Assembly (NCBI GenBank): GCA_903832665.1 | Contig: CAILCG010000024.1 | Span: 124,001 to 188,000, forward strand | Length of the DNA: 64,000 nt | Direction: 5' to 3' | From: an uncultured Methanomicrobiales archaeon | GTDB lineage: Archaea > Halobacteriota > Methanomicrobia > Methanomicrobiales > Methanospirillaceae | In this document: one piece after another, positions 34,190 through 43,420 of the stretch | Layout: each line of letters starts with the position of its first letter | Numbering within the stretch: the first letter of the stretch is position 1 | Notes under the pieces: model-generated | The model's input: the letters and a program-made list of their open reading frames with translations, nothing else | What the model was told of the DNA's origin: nothing | Database searches by the model: none | Translations under genes and position numbers: made by a program

Positions 34190-35035
34190 TTGAACTCAGT
34201 CACAGGTTTCATCGGGTACGGAAGCATGGGGAGCATGATCGTCAACGGGATGCTGGAGAAAAAATGCATCTCTCCGGAAGCGGTGCTCATCAGCACCCGG
34301 CACCCTGAAACTCTTGCGGCCCTGACCGGAAAATACCCGTCCGTGCGGGTCGCAGAGAGCAACCGTTCCCTGGCCCGGAAATGCAGCCGTATCCTGCTCT
34401 GCACCAAACCCCTTGACGCGGTCCGTGTCCTTTCAGAAATTTCCGGTGACCTGCGTCCGGACACCCATATCGTATCCATTGCGGCCTGCCTTCCCCTGGA
34501 GCGGATCGCCCGCTTTTTTCCCGGCCCGGTCACCCGGGTGGTCCCGAGTCTCACGGGCGAGATGCAGGCGGGAGTCACGCTCCTCTGTCATAATGCCCGG
34601 GTCAGCCGGAAGGCTGCACAGGAGATCGAAGAGCTCTTCTCCGCTCTCGGGACCGTGGTGGTGATCGATGAGGAAAATATTGACGTGGCAACGGATCTCA
34701 CCAGCTGCGGTCCGGCCCTGATCGCGGTCCTGATGGAGGAGTTTGCCCGTGCCGCAGTACGGCACAGTACCCTTTCCCTGGAGCAGGCCCGGGCGCTCGC
34801 GGTCTCCACGCTTTCAGGTACGGCCCGGCTTCTCGATGAACAGGGGTCTCCCACCGGGACGATCCTGCGCCGGGTGGCAACCCCGGGCGGGATCACGGAA
34901 GAAGGAGTGCAGCAGCTCCGGTCCGATATGCCCCGGGTCTACGATACGCTCATACAGCGGACGCTCGCAAAATATGAGCTGAGGAAAGCGGATGTGGGAG
35001 CTGAAGGTGACCGGTTGCTGGACCCGGGACCCTGA
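34190..35035 (+). CDS. proC: Pyrroline-5-carboxylate reductase
   Basis: Last step of proline synthesis: NAD(P)H-dependent reduction of pyrroline-5-carboxylate. The 281-residue protein has the Rossmann loop GFIGYGSMGSMI at the N-terminus, and the C-terminal dimer domain with DLTSCGPALIAVLMEEFARA and SPTGTILRRVATPGGITEEG, the substrate-binding region. TTG at 34190 is the likely start, after a ggtaaggg SD; no ATG fits as well. Confidence 0.93.
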   Translation: MNSVTGFIGYGSMGSMIVNGMLEKKCISPEAVLISTRHPETLAALTGKYPSVRVAESNRSLARKCSRILLCTKPLDAVRVLSEISGDLRPDTHIVSIAACLPLERIARFFPGPVTRVVPSLTGEMQAGVTLLCHNARVSRKAAQEIEELFSALGTVVVIDEENIDVATDLTSCGPALIAVLMEEFARAAVRHSTLSLEQARALAVSTLSGTARLLDEQGSPTGTILRRVATPGGITEEGVQQLRSDMPRVYDTLIQRTLAKYELRKADVGAEGDRLLDPGP

Positions 35036-35156
35036 CCCGGCCTCAACTCAAAGCAAAATGCGATATAATTTGTCTTTTTGCGTTAACTTCGGAAAAAGTG
35101 CAAAGATAAACTTACTATTGCTTTCCTGATGGAAACGAACAATCAACTGTGGATTT

Positions 35157-36032
35157 TTAGAGACTTTTGGTTTTACTTTTATCGAACCAATATTTCACTT
35201 TAATCCAGAAACCCGTTTCTTCGATTTCCTTCCTTAAAATTGAATAATTTACTTCTACATCCATGAGAATCTCTTTAACATGCTCTACATTTTCCTTTCC
35301 GAGTCCATGAATTGTAACATAATTTACCCCATATTTCAAGTTTCTTCGTATTTTACTATGAATCATCGTGGGTAATGCATCTGCCATCATCCTACTATTT
35401 ACAAAAAGCGCAAATGCTTCCTCATCTACAATTAAACTGTATCTCTCTAAAAAAGCCGCTCCTGTGAAATTAGGATACTTTGCCATTTCATTATAGAGGG
35501 GAATTATCGTATCCTCAAAATATCCAGAGCTTAATAAATTATTGATTTTTCGCCCTCGATTACCATATTTTGCCATCAATTCCCCTTTAATGGCGTGAAT
35601 TTCTTCATAGGATGCCCCCTCATCCCATCTTTTGTTGATATAAATCGCCCCTCTTAGTGCGGCAAAATCGTCAGGGGGCATTTTTCCTCTGAAAAAATTC
35701 AATAATGCTATAGTATCTCGGTCACTTTCCTTTAGCTCTATATCCTCGACCCGTTTCTTTGAATTTTCCTCAAGAAGGGGAATGCCATCTTGGACAACTG
35801 CTTCAGCAATTAATTTTTTAAATTCTTCACGTTCAATCGGAGGAAGTTCAGAGAGAATTCTTCCTATATTTAAAGAAATTTTTTGGGGGTCTTGTTGCTG
35901 AAATATAGGAGCTGTGGGATTATTGTGATAATGAATTTGAGTTATGTGAATAAGATCGTGAATATCTACGTGGAGATGAACTCTTAATAATTGTACTAAT
36001 TTTTCAAAAAATGAAGCTTTTAAAAGAGACAT
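35157..36032 (-). CDS. Unknown protein of the AT-rich island
   Basis: I do not recognise this 291-residue protein. It is charged and mostly helical, with no signal peptide or clear membrane segment. Features include DRDTIALLNFFRGKMPPDDF, AIYINKRWDEGASYEEIHAI and a C-terminal VNYVTIHGLGKENVEHVKEI, where the Ile-His-Gly-Leu-Gly could be a small loop. The ATG at 36032 lies one base after the stop of the upstream small gene, with a ggatgat SD, so the two are coupled. An in-frame ATG at 36059 is also possible. Confidence 0.7.
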   Translation of the reverse strand: MSLLKASFFEKLVQLLRVHLHVDIHDLIHITQIHYHNNPTAPIFQQQDPQKISLNIGRILSELPPIEREEFKKLIAEAVVQDGIPLLEENSKKRVEDIELKESDRDTIALLNFFRGKMPPDDFAALRGAIYINKRWDEGASYEEIHAIKGELMAKYGNRGRKINNLLSSGYFEDTIIPLYNEMAKYPNFTGAAFLERYSLIVDEEAFALFVNSRMMADALPTMIHSKIRRNLKYGVNYVTIHGLGKENVEHVKEILMDVEVNYSILRKEIEETGFWIKVKYWFDKSKTKSL

Positions 36033-36033
36033 A

Positions 36034-36300
36034 TCATCCAAGAATATCGAGTAATTCAATTAAGGACGGTAGATCAGATTTTATATAAATTTCAGATCCT
36101 TTTGTGATTCCTGCAAAATCCTTTAGATTTATTTCATCTCCATCAAGGGTGACAACTCTTTGAGTTTTATCATCCTTCTCAACGAGGAAATTCCCAGCAT
36201 CAACAGTTTTTCCAAAGCACGAGAGTATCTCAATTCTTGTTGATGCGTCGAAAGTCATTACACCTTCTTGAAATTTCGCTATCATATTCCTGATTCCCAT
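36034..36300 (-). CDS. Small unknown protein, first gene of the island pair
   Basis: An 88-residue protein, not recognised. It looks like a compact alpha/beta domain: FDASTRIEILSCFGKTVDAG, then a short beta region (RVVTLDGDEINLKDFAGI) and a C-terminal helix (LPSLIELLDILG). Small size and tight coupling to the 291-residue partner fit a two-component module such as a toxin-antitoxin or defence pair, but nothing in the sequence proves this. Confidence 0.6.
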   Translation of the reverse strand: MGIRNMIAKFQEGVMTFDASTRIEILSCFGKTVDAGNFLVEKDDKTQRVVTLDGDEINLKDFAGITKGSEIYIKSDLPSLIELLDILG

Positions 36301-36720
36301 CTACTTTTTATAATAATATAAACATTCCGATTTTTCTCGATTTCAAAATCTTTCTAAACTATTGGTCATATTCACTATTTACCTTTACTTTATTTCCCTA
36401 AAACTCCATGATATGTTTATCCATTCTTTTACACCATTCCATCTCCTTCAGAGTAGCACATTGCACATTATCCCCCTCACTACGAAACATGATAACCCCC
36501 TGTTCGGAGCTAATCGGTTACCTGAAATAGGTGAAAAGGCACGCTAGGAGGTCGGTTGAGGATTGAGGGGTCGAAACTACACTACGCTTGGCCGGTGGGG
36601 AGAATTAGGAGAGGTTTTATTGTGACTCAAGCTATGATGTGGGAATTTCAGTTCACAGATGTTGACTCTCTGAATACTTGTAAAAAGATAAAGTGAACTT
36701 TAACCTGCTTAAAAAAAATA
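36301..36720. other. Gene-free AT-rich spacer
   Basis: No convincing gene, RNA or strong hairpin seen in this spacer between the island genes and the polB stop. Confidence 0.4.
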
Positions 36721-39195
36721 TCAGCCGAGTCCCCACTGGGCCAGGGTGGTTCGCGAGGGATCGACATCGTCCCAGCTCCATCCTAAGGCCTCGATGATAC
36801 GCGAGATCGGCTGCTTGATCGTCTTGTCCAGCATCAGCTCCAGGTCAACGACAAACTCGCAGGGCACCTGGTCGCCATACTCGAAGCAGAGCACATCGGT
36901 CTTGGGGTACTTCGATTTCACGGTCCGGATATAGATCCGCTTGGGCTTGCTCCCCTTGCCAAATTCGGTATGGAGATGGAGGTTGGCATATTTCGCCCCC
37001 CGGACCTGCGCATCGTCATTCTCGTAATCATCGAGCGATTTGCCGATCCCGCCGGGAATCCCGATCTCATCCAGGGAATATTTTCCCGCCCGGTATTTCG
37101 TGATCACGTCCGAGAGGAATGCCTTGATTATGGGATATTCCTCCCCTTTGAGGATCATCTCCATCACCCGCTGCTGCACGACCTTGGTGATCTGGGGCGT
37201 ATCGCTTCTTCTGATCTCAAAGCCCACGATGTCCACTTCATCGACATCTTTTCCCTCTTTCCAGACCAGGTGTCCCGCGTACCGCTTCTTCTTGCCGGCC
37301 TGGAAGAACCGTTCATAGATCTTCTCGAACTTGATCGAGAAGTAATGGACATCGGCATTGAGTTCCTTGTGGGCGAACTCCTGGTAACTCTCGTTGAGTT
37401 TCTTCTCGATTGCCCGGGCGGCTGCAATGGTCGCTTCCCGGTCAAGGTTCGGGGGCAGGTGCACCATGCACGAATCCGTGTCCCCATAGATGACCGTGTA
37501 ACCCTGCTGTTCGATCACGCGCCGGGTGTGCTCGATGATGGCACGCCCAACGGACGTGACGGCTGAACCGATCTCCCGGTCGAAGAGCCGGAAGCGGGTG
37601 TAGCCCGAGACGCCGTAGTACGTGTTCATGATAACCTTGAGCACGTTCTGCTGCATATCGTAGAGCACGTAGTTCGGGGACCCGAATTCATATTTATTGC
37701 GCAACGCCTTCTTATCGTCCCGCTCCTTGAGCAGCTCCGATATGATGCTCCTTGTTAAGCCGTCCGGCTTCTTCCTGAACCGGATCCCGTTGGGGGCCAC
37801 GAGTTCGCCGGCGGGATCCTTGGTCTCCATGGAGGCATTGATGGTCATCATGGCCATCGGGTACAGGGATTTTAAGTCCAGCACCACCACGTTCTCCCGG
37901 ACGCCCCTGCTCGGCTCGAAGACCGTTGCCCCTTCGAACTCATCCGCGTTTGCGAACCCCTTGGAAGGGAGCACGTATTTTCCGGACGCCTTTCGCAGGA
38001 TATAGACATCGATCACGCTCGAGGAGTTCAGGGTCTTGTCGAGCGGGCAGCCGACATAGCGGGCGATCTCGCGGTAGAACTCGATGATATTATCTTTTTT
38101 GTTGATCTTGACACAGAGTTCCACATCCTTGAAGTTGTACTCGACCAGCAGTGCCGGCTGGTCCCGCCAGAGATTCGAGATGGTGCCGGTGTACCGCACT
38201 TTCTGCTCGCCCACTTCCTCCAGCGCAACGGCATCAAGCCGGTAGGACTCCTTCTGGGTGAGGTGCATCTTCTTGTATCCCGTCAGGAGATCGAAGAGTG
38301 CCCGTCCCCGCAAGGCATTGCGTTCCGTCTGGCCCGGTAAGCGGGCGAGATGGGCGGCCGAGAGCCCGAGCCGCTCCATCCTGCCGGTGATATACGGCAT
38401 ATCGAACTCGACAAAGTTCCAGCCGGAGAGCACGTCCGGATCCCTTGAAACAATATATGCGGAGAAGGCCCGGAGCATCGCAACTTCTTCGGTATAGGTG
38501 CAGATCGTATGGGTCTCTTTCCGGAAGCACCCGTTGACAAGCCCGCCCTCTGCTTCTTTATCCGTAATATCCCCGGACTCGCCTTTGCTCCGGAAAAGGA
38601 AGGTAGTATAGTCGTTATCGAACGAGTCGTAACAGGTGATGCAGATGATCGCATCCCGCTGGGGATCGGGAAATCCGCGTTCATCCTCGCACTCGATATC
38701 AATGATGCAGGACCGGGCAGGAGCATCCACGTGTGCGGGTTTGAGATCCGTATACTCCGCGGTCATTGACGGGGCCGATACCCCGCCGGTGAGACCGCAG
38801 TCGATCATGAACCGGGTGGCAAACGGGATATCTGCTTCAAAGTGCCGGTACCGCTCCCGGGCATCCCGGACATCGCCTGGCTGCTGGACATACATGCGCC
38901 GCAGGGGTTCATCCCGGATCGAGCGGTATTCAGTCCCTTCCTCTACGGTTGCCTGTCCCGGGGGTGCAATCTCTTTTGCCTGGTCGACAGGTACGTAAAA
39001 ATACGGTCTGAACCCGATCACATCGAGCCGTAATGCTTTTCCCTGTGCATTGCGGCCGAAGATGTGGATGACCGGGCCATCCGGGGCCCGGCTGTACTCC
39101 ACCTGGTTGATCGCAAGGGAGATTTGGTTCGTGAACTGATCGAGCGTGCTGGGAACCGTCATGCATGCTTCCGTGCGCTGGGACTCTGACGCCAT
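36721..39195 (-). CDS. polB: Family B DNA polymerase
   Basis: Replicative or repair polymerase with proofreading. The 824-residue protein has exonuclease motifs I (IDIECEDERGF), II (LSGWNFVEFDMPYI) and III (YNFKDVEL), and polymerase motifs A (LDLKSLYPMAM), B (KVIMNTYYGVSGY) and C (IYGDTDSC), all with intact acidic residues. The N-terminal domain is consistent with archaeal PolB. The ATG at 39195 lies one base after the mdh stop (TGA-T-ATG), indicating coupling; a TTG at 39204 would overlap mdh. Confidence 0.96.
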   Translation of the reverse strand: MASESQRTEACMTVPSTLDQFTNQISLAINQVEYSRAPDGPVIHIFGRNAQGKALRLDVIGFRPYFYVPVDQAKEIAPPGQATVEEGTEYRSIRDEPLRRMYVQQPGDVRDARERYRHFEADIPFATRFMIDCGLTGGVSAPSMTAEYTDLKPAHVDAPARSCIIDIECEDERGFPDPQRDAIICITCYDSFDNDYTTFLFRSKGESGDITDKEAEGGLVNGCFRKETHTICTYTEEVAMLRAFSAYIVSRDPDVLSGWNFVEFDMPYITGRMERLGLSAAHLARLPGQTERNALRGRALFDLLTGYKKMHLTQKESYRLDAVALEEVGEQKVRYTGTISNLWRDQPALLVEYNFKDVELCVKINKKDNIIEFYREIARYVGCPLDKTLNSSSVIDVYILRKASGKYVLPSKGFANADEFEGATVFEPSRGVRENVVVLDLKSLYPMAMMTINASMETKDPAGELVAPNGIRFRKKPDGLTRSIISELLKERDDKKALRNKYEFGSPNYVLYDMQQNVLKVIMNTYYGVSGYTRFRLFDREIGSAVTSVGRAIIEHTRRVIEQQGYTVIYGDTDSCMVHLPPNLDREATIAAARAIEKKLNESYQEFAHKELNADVHYFSIKFEKIYERFFQAGKKKRYAGHLVWKEGKDVDEVDIVGFEIRRSDTPQITKVVQQRVMEMILKGEEYPIIKAFLSDVITKYRAGKYSLDEIGIPGGIGKSLDDYENDDAQVRGAKYANLHLHTEFGKGSKPKRIYIRTVKSKYPKTDVLCFEYGDQVPCEFVVDLELMLDKTIKQPISRIIEALGWSWDDVDPSRTTLAQWGLG

Positions 39196-39196
39196 A

Positions 39197-40063
39197 TCAG
39201 GCAATCGCCTTCCGGTAGAGTTCTGCTACAAATGTGCCTGCTTCGTTCATCTTCTCCTGCTCCCAGTTGTCGAGGTGCCATTCCTCGATCGACTGGATTC
39301 CCTCTTTGCCGATCCTGACCGGCACTCCCAGCGAACAGCCGGCAATGCCGTATTCCCCTTCCAGCACCGAGGAACAGATCACCAGTTCGCGGGCATCGGT
39401 CGTCACCATGCGGATGAGGTTTATGATATGGAGGGCCGGGCCAAAGACGGTCCCGCCTTTGCCCTTGATCACATCCATGCTCGCCCCCCGGAGTTCCGCG
39501 AGGATCTCCTCTCGCAGGGGGACGGGGATCTCCCGTGACTGGGTGGAGAAGACCGGCACCTGGTGCTCCCCATGCTCTCCCAGTACAAAGGAGAACCCGG
39601 TGATGCCCCGGTTCTGCAGGGCGAATGCAAACCGTGCGCTGTCAAGCTGGCCGCCAAACCCGATACACCGTTCCCGCGGAATTCCTGTCCGCTTGCAGAG
39701 CAGGTAGTTGTTCGCATCCATGGGGTTGGTCACCGTGATCACGATCCCGCCAAACCCCCTGAGCAGGGCAGCACATTCATTGACCGCTGCCGAATTGGCC
39801 TCCAGCAGATCGGCCCGGGTCTTTACTGAGGGGTTGCGGGGAAGACCCGCGGAAAAAATGCAGAGATCCGCATCGCGGATTTCCTGTTTTTCCGTAGAGA
39901 TACGGGTGGCAAGGCCCGTGTGCCGGAGATCAAGTACCTGCGCTTTGAGCAGGTCCGGTGCATTGTCATAGAGGACAAGTTCGTCTGCGATTCCCATAGC
40001 TGATGCAAGATAGGCGACCTCGCCACCTATCCTGCCAACTCCCACGACCGCAAGGCGCACCAT
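39197..40063 (-). CDS. mdh: Malate dehydrogenase (LDH/MDH superfamily)
   Basis: NAD(P)-dependent oxidoreductase of oxaloacetate/malate. The 288-residue protein has GVGRIGGEVAYLA (dinucleotide loop), LPRNPSVKTRADLLEANS, in which Arg replaces the Gln that marks lactate dehydrogenase, TVTNPMDANNYL, GFGGQLDSARF with the substrate Arg, and LGEHGEHQVP with the catalytic His. Methanogens use malate dehydrogenase in a partial TCA cycle. It is coupled to polB downstream, a metabolic-replication pairing with no obvious functional link. Confidence 0.93.
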   Translation of the reverse strand: MVRLAVVGVGRIGGEVAYLASAMGIADELVLYDNAPDLLKAQVLDLRHTGLATRISTEKQEIRDADLCIFSAGLPRNPSVKTRADLLEANSAAVNECAALLRGFGGIVITVTNPMDANNYLLCKRTGIPRERCIGFGGQLDSARFAFALQNRGITGFSFVLGEHGEHQVPVFSTQSREIPVPLREEILAELRGASMDVIKGKGGTVFGPALHIINLIRMVTTDARELVICSSVLEGEYGIAGCSLGVPVRIGKEGIQSIEEWHLDNWEQEKMNEAGTFVAELYRKAIA

Positions 40064-42169: not shown

Positions 42170-43420
42170 ATGAAAAAAAAATCTATAATTCGTGTAATTT
42201 CGTTATGCCTTTTTACTGCTGTCATGTTTTCAGGATGTATTTTTATTCAGACAACAAATCAAACCCCATCTCAATATTCCGGAACCGAATCCTTAAAGGA
42301 TCTTGTCACATCATCCCCGGTGAATGAATCTTACTGGATCCTGTCGAATCCTGTTAACAATGAAACACTATACGGCGTTGTCAATATATCCGGTGTAACG
42401 AACCTGCCCATTGAAGAAAAAATTCTGGTGAATGTCAGACCCGCCTGGCTGACTCGCCAGAAAAACGAAAATGGTGAATTTCCTTCCGAGACAAAAATTG
42501 CCGGGATATTACGAAAACCCGATGGAAAAAATATTTTTTCAGTAGAGTTTAATTCAACAAATTTCAAACCCAATTATTCCTTCCCCTATGTTGTAAGTAT
42601 TTATTCAATGAATTATCCTCAGGTTCAAGACGAGCAGTCTGTTTTTATTTTCGAGGCTCCGCCATTGATCCCGGGAGCCGCTTATACGTATAATGGCATT
42701 TCTCCAAACCGGAATATCACTTCTCTGCAGGTCTGGATCTTTGGCCCTTCATTTGCCGAGGAATCCACGGTCGATGTAAAACCGGATGGAACGTTTACCT
42801 ATCTTCTTGACCAGGATAAAACCCGACAGATAATCCCGAACTCAAAAAACAGTCCCAATTACAAGATGATTCTTCATTTTCCGTCCGCTGATAATCAATA
42901 TGATTTACCCTATTATCGTGATACGGGATGGCTGGTTGATAGAACCGGAAAAAAATGTTTTGACATTGTCCAGGTACGCACGTTGGAAGGGGATGGTGGA
43001 TCGAAACTCTTCATCGATAGCATACATCAGGCCGGAAATCATGATAGCTATAAGGCAATTGATCTCGTTGTCAATAACCCGTGGGTTTCTATCGACCCTG
43101 TTGGTGAACGTTCCAACGCAAGTAATTTTACGATTACCGGGTCAACAAACACCCCTGCGGGAAATGAGATACTCGTAGAAGTTTATGACATCAAATATCG
43201 AAATAAAGGTTTATGGAGCCAGAACGGTAAAATACCCGGAGAATTTTCTTATGTAAGAACATTGAAGGTTATGCAGGGGCCCTTTGGAAGAAATGTATGG
43301 CAAATGCCCATTCCGACAAATGGATGGGGACCCGGAACCTATGTAATTAATGTGGCAACAATTTATCAAAATGTTGTTGTCGAGCAGACGTTCAATCTGA
43401 CAAAGGGGACTGTGGTGTAA
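42170..43420 (+). CDS. AT-rich secreted lipoprotein with two related beta domains
   Basis: A 416-residue predicted lipoprotein: a hydrophobic signal ends in the lipobox-like FSGC at about residue 23. Two related domains of roughly 90 residues can be seen, one near residues 65-165 (VNISGVTNLPIEEKILVNV) and one near 315-410 (FTITGSTNTPAGNEILVEV). Each runs strand-rich to a long Lys/Asn-rich middle. They resemble the beta-sandwich domains of methanogen surface proteins. Base composition is AT-rich relative to flanking genes, a sign of transfer. The ligand is unknown. Confidence 0.75.
   Translation: MKKKSIIRVISLCLFTAVMFSGCIFIQTTNQTPSQYSGTESLKDLVTSSPVNESYWILSNPVNNETLYGVVNISGVTNLPIEEKILVNVRPAWLTRQKNENGEFPSETKIAGILRKPDGKNIFSVEFNSTNFKPNYSFPYVVSIYSMNYPQVQDEQSVFIFEAPPLIPGAAYTYNGISPNRNITSLQVWIFGPSFAEESTVDVKPDGTFTYLLDQDKTRQIIPNSKNSPNYKMILHFPSADNQYDLPYYRDTGWLVDRTGKKCFDIVQVRTLEGDGGSKLFIDSIHQAGNHDSYKAIDLVVNNPWVSIDPVGERSNASNFTITGSTNTPAGNEILVEVYDIKYRNKGLWSQNGKIPGEFSYVRTLKVMQGPFGRNVWQMPIPTNGWGPGTYVINVATIYQNVVVEQTFNLTKGTVV

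Follow-up and report, generated by a model that had tools for sequence, protein, structure and literature searches.

The window, by which we mean the whole 64-kb (64,000-nucleotide) stretch of DNA that was analysed, carries a two-gene unit on its minus strand (35157-36300), lying between a proC-like gene and a family-B DNA polymerase gene (polB). Both flanks were named from their translations, and the features of the locus are given in Table 1. The original prediction had described two overlapping, A/T-rich genes of 88 and about 291 residues, tightly coupled and set between housekeeping genes. Both ORFs, the 291-residue length, the flanking genes and the coupling (a stop, one base and a start, TGA-T-ATG) were borne out, but the overlap was not. 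The two genes are 1 base apart, and they overlap only if the large gene is made to begin at an upstream TTG, which is not conserved. The length of 88 residues is also doubtful. Homologues of the small protein begin 5 residues after the first ATG (i.e. at ATG 36285), an AGGAA lies just 5′ of that codon, and a TATA-like box is found 28-37 nt upstream of it. Because all three fit ATG 36285, the product is probably 83 amino acids long and not 88. From the position of the box, the transcript would start close to the same ATG.

Table 1. Features of the two-gene locus and its flanks (window coordinates).
Feature	Position	Strand	Description and basis
Left flank: proC-like gene	34190..35035	plus	translation, synteny
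Inserted AT-rich island between the proC and polB stop codons	35036..36720		empty sites in L137/L138, lowest GC
Large gene	35157..36032	minus	291 aa; ORF, conserved family A3, AlphaFold model
C-terminal beta-alpha-beta-alpha-beta-beta domain with IHGxGxxN motif (large residues 204-285), predicted	35178..35423	minus	model, Foldseek
Family signature YGxRGxxIxNLxSxGYF, also YG.RG.NI.NLCS.GYF (large residues 156-172)	35517..35567	minus	alignments
Coupling junction TGA-T-ATG (small-gene stop, one base, large-gene start)	36030..36036	minus	sequence
Small gene, likely form	36034..36285	minus	83 aa from likely start 36285; ORF, homologue starts, conserved family A4
Small gene, longer form	36034-36300	minus	88 aa from first ATG (36300)
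Putative TATA-like box TTTATATTAT upstream of small gene	36313..36322	minus	read from sequence
Right flank: family-B DNA polymerase gene (polB)	36721..39204	minus	translation, synteny

The predicted A/T bias is pronounced: GC content is 35.7% in the island vs 53.1% in the whole window, and lower than in any of 624 sliding windows of equal size. Most close-pair comparisons of the small and large genes gave dN/dS values of 0.04-0.19, with a value of 0.38 for the large gene in one pair of Methanoperedens-type copies. In most close relatives purifying selection therefore acts on the pair, and the small and large ORFs are genuine genes. Between the small gene and polB lie ~420 bp of non-coding DNA (36301-36720), in which neither an Rfam match nor a clear repeat was seen; this stretch could be an insertion scar. 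Elsewhere in the window, a second AT-rich stretch (42170-43420, GC 0.40) encodes a predicted lipoprotein of 416 amino acids beside a PAS/histidine-kinase gene.

Insertion, spread and conservation of the pair

The proC-polB gap is 1685 bp in the window vs ~75 bp and ~35 bp in two genomes of the same genus that have no island (L137 and L138). Both genomes keep the gene order uvrB, PAS-domain gene, proC, polB and mdh, with proC and polB as convergent neighbours. Since these two relatives show empty sites, the island is an insertion. A third relative (L136) has a gap of ~350 bp and also lacks the pair. At the island ends, searches for terminal repeats, a target-site duplication, a tRNA or an Rfam element were negative.

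Across relatives the large gene is patchy, being present in 9/232 Methanomicrobiales genomes, 3/39 genomes of the source genus (the window's own genome counted) and 17/242 haloarchaeal genomes, or eighteen when a transposon-truncated copy in genome G622 is counted. A housekeeping family holding a conserved position in all relatives had been named in advance as the pattern that would speak against a defence or toxin–antitoxin module; what we found was no family, few carriers in the order and the genus, and empty sites. At 59% identity, the closest relative of the window's large protein comes from another family (genome G017), while the copy from the same genus (G175) is 37% identical to it. The large-protein tree agrees with these identities, placing the closest copy outside the window's own genus, and is incongruent. 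Scarcity in both groups, an empty site and an incongruent tree together make up the patchy, horizontally moving distribution that is looked for in anti-phage defence.

Several copies have decayed. L018 has an internal stop in its large gene beside an intact small gene; L025 is a remnant. In G622 (L230, 1902-4846) a transposase gene occupies the place of the small gene and of the 5′ part of the large one, whose remainder survives together with a downstream gene for a transmembrane (TM) protein. The pair moves between chromosomal sites and often decays.

Homologues of the small protein were recovered with a profile as query, which matched twenty contigs. The archaeal matches came from Methanoregula, Methanoculleus, Methanospirillum, Methanoperedens, Woesearchaeota, Micrarchaeota and Marsarchaeota, and the bacterial ones from Omnitrophota, FCPU426, Elusimicrobia, Spartobacteria and one Planctomycetota bin. 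The large gene lies directly 3′ of the small gene in all of these contigs that are intact, the exceptions being L036 (contig end) and the decayed L025. Seen from the large gene, the small gene is directly upstream in every intact locus, archaeal and bacterial, and went unseen only in L010 (contig end) and L230 (transposon insertion); in haloarchaea it stands just upstream in all copies of the seventeen genomes. Several methanogens and one Omnitrophota bacterium (L020, L022, L019, L023, L028) retain the 1-nt junction, so that it is conserved from Methanoregula to a bacterium. The small and large genes are an obligate, tightly coupled unit, with the two-gene operon layout of type II toxin–antitoxin systems.

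Many of the bacterial and DPANN copies derive from metagenome bins, and the copies in Spartobacteria and FCPU426 are surrounded by bacterial genes. The Micrarchaeota (L034) and Planctomycetota (L035) copies share identical scores, the same third gene and similar isolate naming. Because its proteins score identically to those of the Micrarchaeota copy, the Planctomycetota copy may be misbinned, and the filing of one module under both bins is probably a binning error. In 31/237 Omnitrophota genomes, proteins of ~180-270 amino acids (L097-L115) gave weak matches of 18-26 bits to the large-protein profile over its residues 40-105; we judged these probably to be a different, common protein.

Third genes and genomic neighbourhood

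In haloarchaea the TM gene lies directly 3′ of the large gene, at a spacing of -4 to +12 bp (L080, L081, L086, L087, L089-L095 and others). Its products form a family (A6) of 129-219 amino acids with two to four predicted TM segments and an FLPxxNYxYL motif, for which neither Pfam nor PADLOC gave a match. This family was found in fourteen of the 242 haloarchaeal genomes, and in thirteen it adjoins the large gene: twelve are among the seventeen genomes with a large gene, and the thirteenth is G622 with its truncated copy. Away from the module there was a single weak match (G703). The TM gene is strongly linked to the pair in haloarchaea (13/18 large-gene genomes among 242 searched, Fisher P ~ 1e-16).

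Other third genes are of different kinds. In L083 and L088 the end of the large gene faces an unrelated, convergent 4-TM gene. The Micrarchaeota locus (L034) has a codirectional gene 16 bp downstream with an RX4H motif (RNIIVH), and L079 has a convergent gene with another (RNDVAH). Both were read by eye as instances of the HEPN RX4-6H motif, and PDB sequence searches returned no match for either, so we call these genes HEPN-like on the motif reading alone. The G175 large gene has a convergent neighbour 4 bp away (L011, 8265-9233) that encodes Cys-rich segments and a PD-(D/E)XK-like pattern (FDVDVCL...IAIECKD). This neighbour had no PDB match and is possibly a further partner or effector. A Fic gene in L013, convergent and 140 bp downstream, is missing from close relatives and was excluded as a partner.

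No third gene accompanies the window copy or most of those in methanogens and bacteria; they stand solitary between housekeeping genes and outside defence islands. In Methanospirillum stamsii (L017/L021; L017 7512-9770) the pair is flanked by a CRISPR array on one side and cas1 on the other; the L017 array has at least eleven repeats at 73-78 bp spacing, with type III-like genes further on. PADLOC matches near haloarchaeal copies were isolated singles, counted without control loci for comparison. Tyrosine-recombinase-like genes adjoin three loci (L079, L094 and L024).

Known families and predicted structure

As the original prediction had it, the pair belongs to no recognised family. The large protein and its homologues had no consistent match in Pfam, NCBIfam or PADLOC, and neither did the large protein in a PHROGs scan. 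The same held for the small protein in Pfam and NCBIfam (with its homologues) and in PADLOC (alone), while PDB sequence searches gave nothing consistent for either protein. Neither showed significant homology to known families of toxins or antitoxins in Pfam, NCBIfam or PADLOC, and the PADLOC defence profiles matched none of the large, small or TM proteins. Weak Pfam, PDB and NCBIfam matches (DNA topoisomerase VI, fimbrillin, ThiC etc.) were inconsistent between members and were dropped. Neither GTDB contigs nor IMG/VR yielded matches to single-sequence queries, nor did IMG/VR viral contigs to profiles A1 and A2. The large protein was not found in phage records and appeared in one plasmid record only (Halobacterium pSTJ002). 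A literature search likewise turned up no recognisable description of the module, which is weak evidence of novelty. None of the small, large and haloarchaeal membrane families has a match in the curated libraries searched, yet the unit is common to archaea and bacteria and its third gene varies.

Structure prediction, which had been proposed for both proteins, was informative for one of them. An AlphaFold2 model of the large protein, built on seventeen homologues, reached a pLDDT of 81 and a pTM of 0.62, and predicts an N-terminal part that is short and rich in beta structure, a helical middle domain (~89-204) that contains the family signature, and an Alba/IF3-C-like C-terminus. Among solved structures, the top Foldseek matches include Alba, Rpp20/Rpp25, Pop6/Pop7 (probability 0.99) and IF3-C, with weak E-values (best 0.017, none reaching 1e-3); phage Smr-like models were also among the fold matches. 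Profile comparison gave no support to membership of the Alba family (PF01918), with an hhalign value of 12.3 when at least 10 of 100 column-shuffled controls reached 13.0-18.0, and no significant Pfam match to Alba was found for the large protein. Nor was Smr (PF01713) significant for the C-terminal domain (hhalign P 0.2-0.5), though one of the seventeen members matched it weakly (E 0.0048). The resemblance in fold suggests nucleic-acid binding by the large protein, with membership of either Alba or Smr unsupported by sequence.

The best conserved residues of the large protein are G170, Y171, F210, V211, G243 and G245. Because its alignment has no conserved acidic/histidine (D/E/H) set of the catalytic kind, an enzymatic site appears unlikely. 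The small protein has a conserved GS...K.D segment, but its model was poor (pLDDT 64), and at that quality a fold search with it is meaningless.

A candidate conflict module and its alternatives

We think it slightly better than an even bet (probability about 0.52) that the pair forms the conserved core of an intra-genomic conflict module, hitherto undescribed and spread by horizontal transfer, of the virus-defence or abortive-infection type. The large protein, with its helical middle and Alba/IF3-C-like predicted nucleic-acid-binding fold, would be the sensor or regulator, and the small protein its dedicated partner, restraining or loading it. When foreign nucleic acid or infection is sensed, the small–large complex may release or drive an effector: the membrane protein in haloarchaea, and perhaps a HEPN-like RNase in a few loci. 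The window pair, which has no third gene, would act alone or through an unlinked effector. The original prediction had read the layout as that of a small defence or toxin–antitoxin module, and it is supported in part by the mobility, the decay and the effector-type partners seen in relatives. Defence or toxin–antitoxin function is still something we infer, because in the window a third gene is absent and the pair shows neither a recognisable catalytic site nor a known antitoxin domain.

Much of the same evidence could be claimed by a plain two-component toxin–antitoxin system, in which the upstream, small gene would encode the antitoxin and the large gene the toxin, with the haloarchaeal third gene as an accessory. 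Such systems would account for the small gene coming first, the tight coupling, the patchy spread and the decay, and the broken large gene beside an intact small gene in L018 resembles loss of a toxin with its antitoxin kept. We nevertheless consider this reading unlikely, though worth keeping in view: no known toxin or antitoxin domain was found, conserved catalytic residues are lacking in the large protein, L230 lost its small gene yet keeps most of the large gene along with the TM gene, and the near-exclusive link to a membrane gene in haloarchaea is left unexplained. An ordinary, non-conflict role for a mobile accessory operon (nucleic-acid binding, stress regulation or membrane physiology) seems to us a little less probable again. 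It would suit the fact that in most methanogens and bacteria the pair stands alone among housekeeping genes, the purifying selection, and an Alba-like predicted fold typical of chromatin or RNA-binding proteins, but it fits poorly with so patchy a distribution, frequent decay and effector-like partner genes.

That the two genes are cargo or hallmark genes of a mobile element or provirus, with no role for the host, we regard as improbable. The foreign GC content, the recombinase-like neighbours at three loci and the one haloarchaeal plasmid copy are what such an origin would leave, but IMG/VR contigs and phage records gave no match and plasmids a single one, no element ends were seen in the window, and purifying selection argues against it.

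A broader form of the conflict-module reading is more tentative than the reading itself. In it, the pair would be a cross-domain immune system with an obligate core, made of the 80-aa partner and the large Alba-fold sensor, and with effectors interchanged by lineage (two unrelated membrane families and HEPN-type RNases). If confirmed, the module would add an archaeal-centred defence or toxin–antitoxin system and give a function to genes now called ‘hypothetical’ in methanogens and haloarchaea.

Among known systems, type II toxin–antitoxin modules (e.g. HEPN-MNT and VapBC) share with the pair a small operon of two genes with the small one first, tight coupling, patchy mobile spread and decay. 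The pair differs in belonging to no known toxin or antitoxin family, in a large protein lacking a conserved catalytic set and in the effector-like third gene that often follows. Proteins of the Alba superfamily (Alba, Rpp20/Rpp25, Pop6/Pop7) and of IF3-C/Smr-like folds resemble the large protein in its predicted C-terminal beta-alpha-beta-alpha-beta-beta domain, and its [HR][GA]xG motif on the second strand is reminiscent of the Alba KARG; unlike Alba and Smr, to which it has no significant sequence-profile similarity, it carries this domain as one part of a longer chain that also has a helical domain. Kiwa, with its KwaA and KwaB proteins, provides an analogy among multi-gene abortive-infection systems with membrane effectors. 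The large and TM families have no PADLOC match, the module has an extra obligate small protein, and its methanogen and bacterial copies lack the TM gene, but the haloarchaeal form has the same arrangement as Kiwa: a soluble protein of ~300 amino acids, possibly nucleic-acid-binding, encoded beside a small multi-TM protein.
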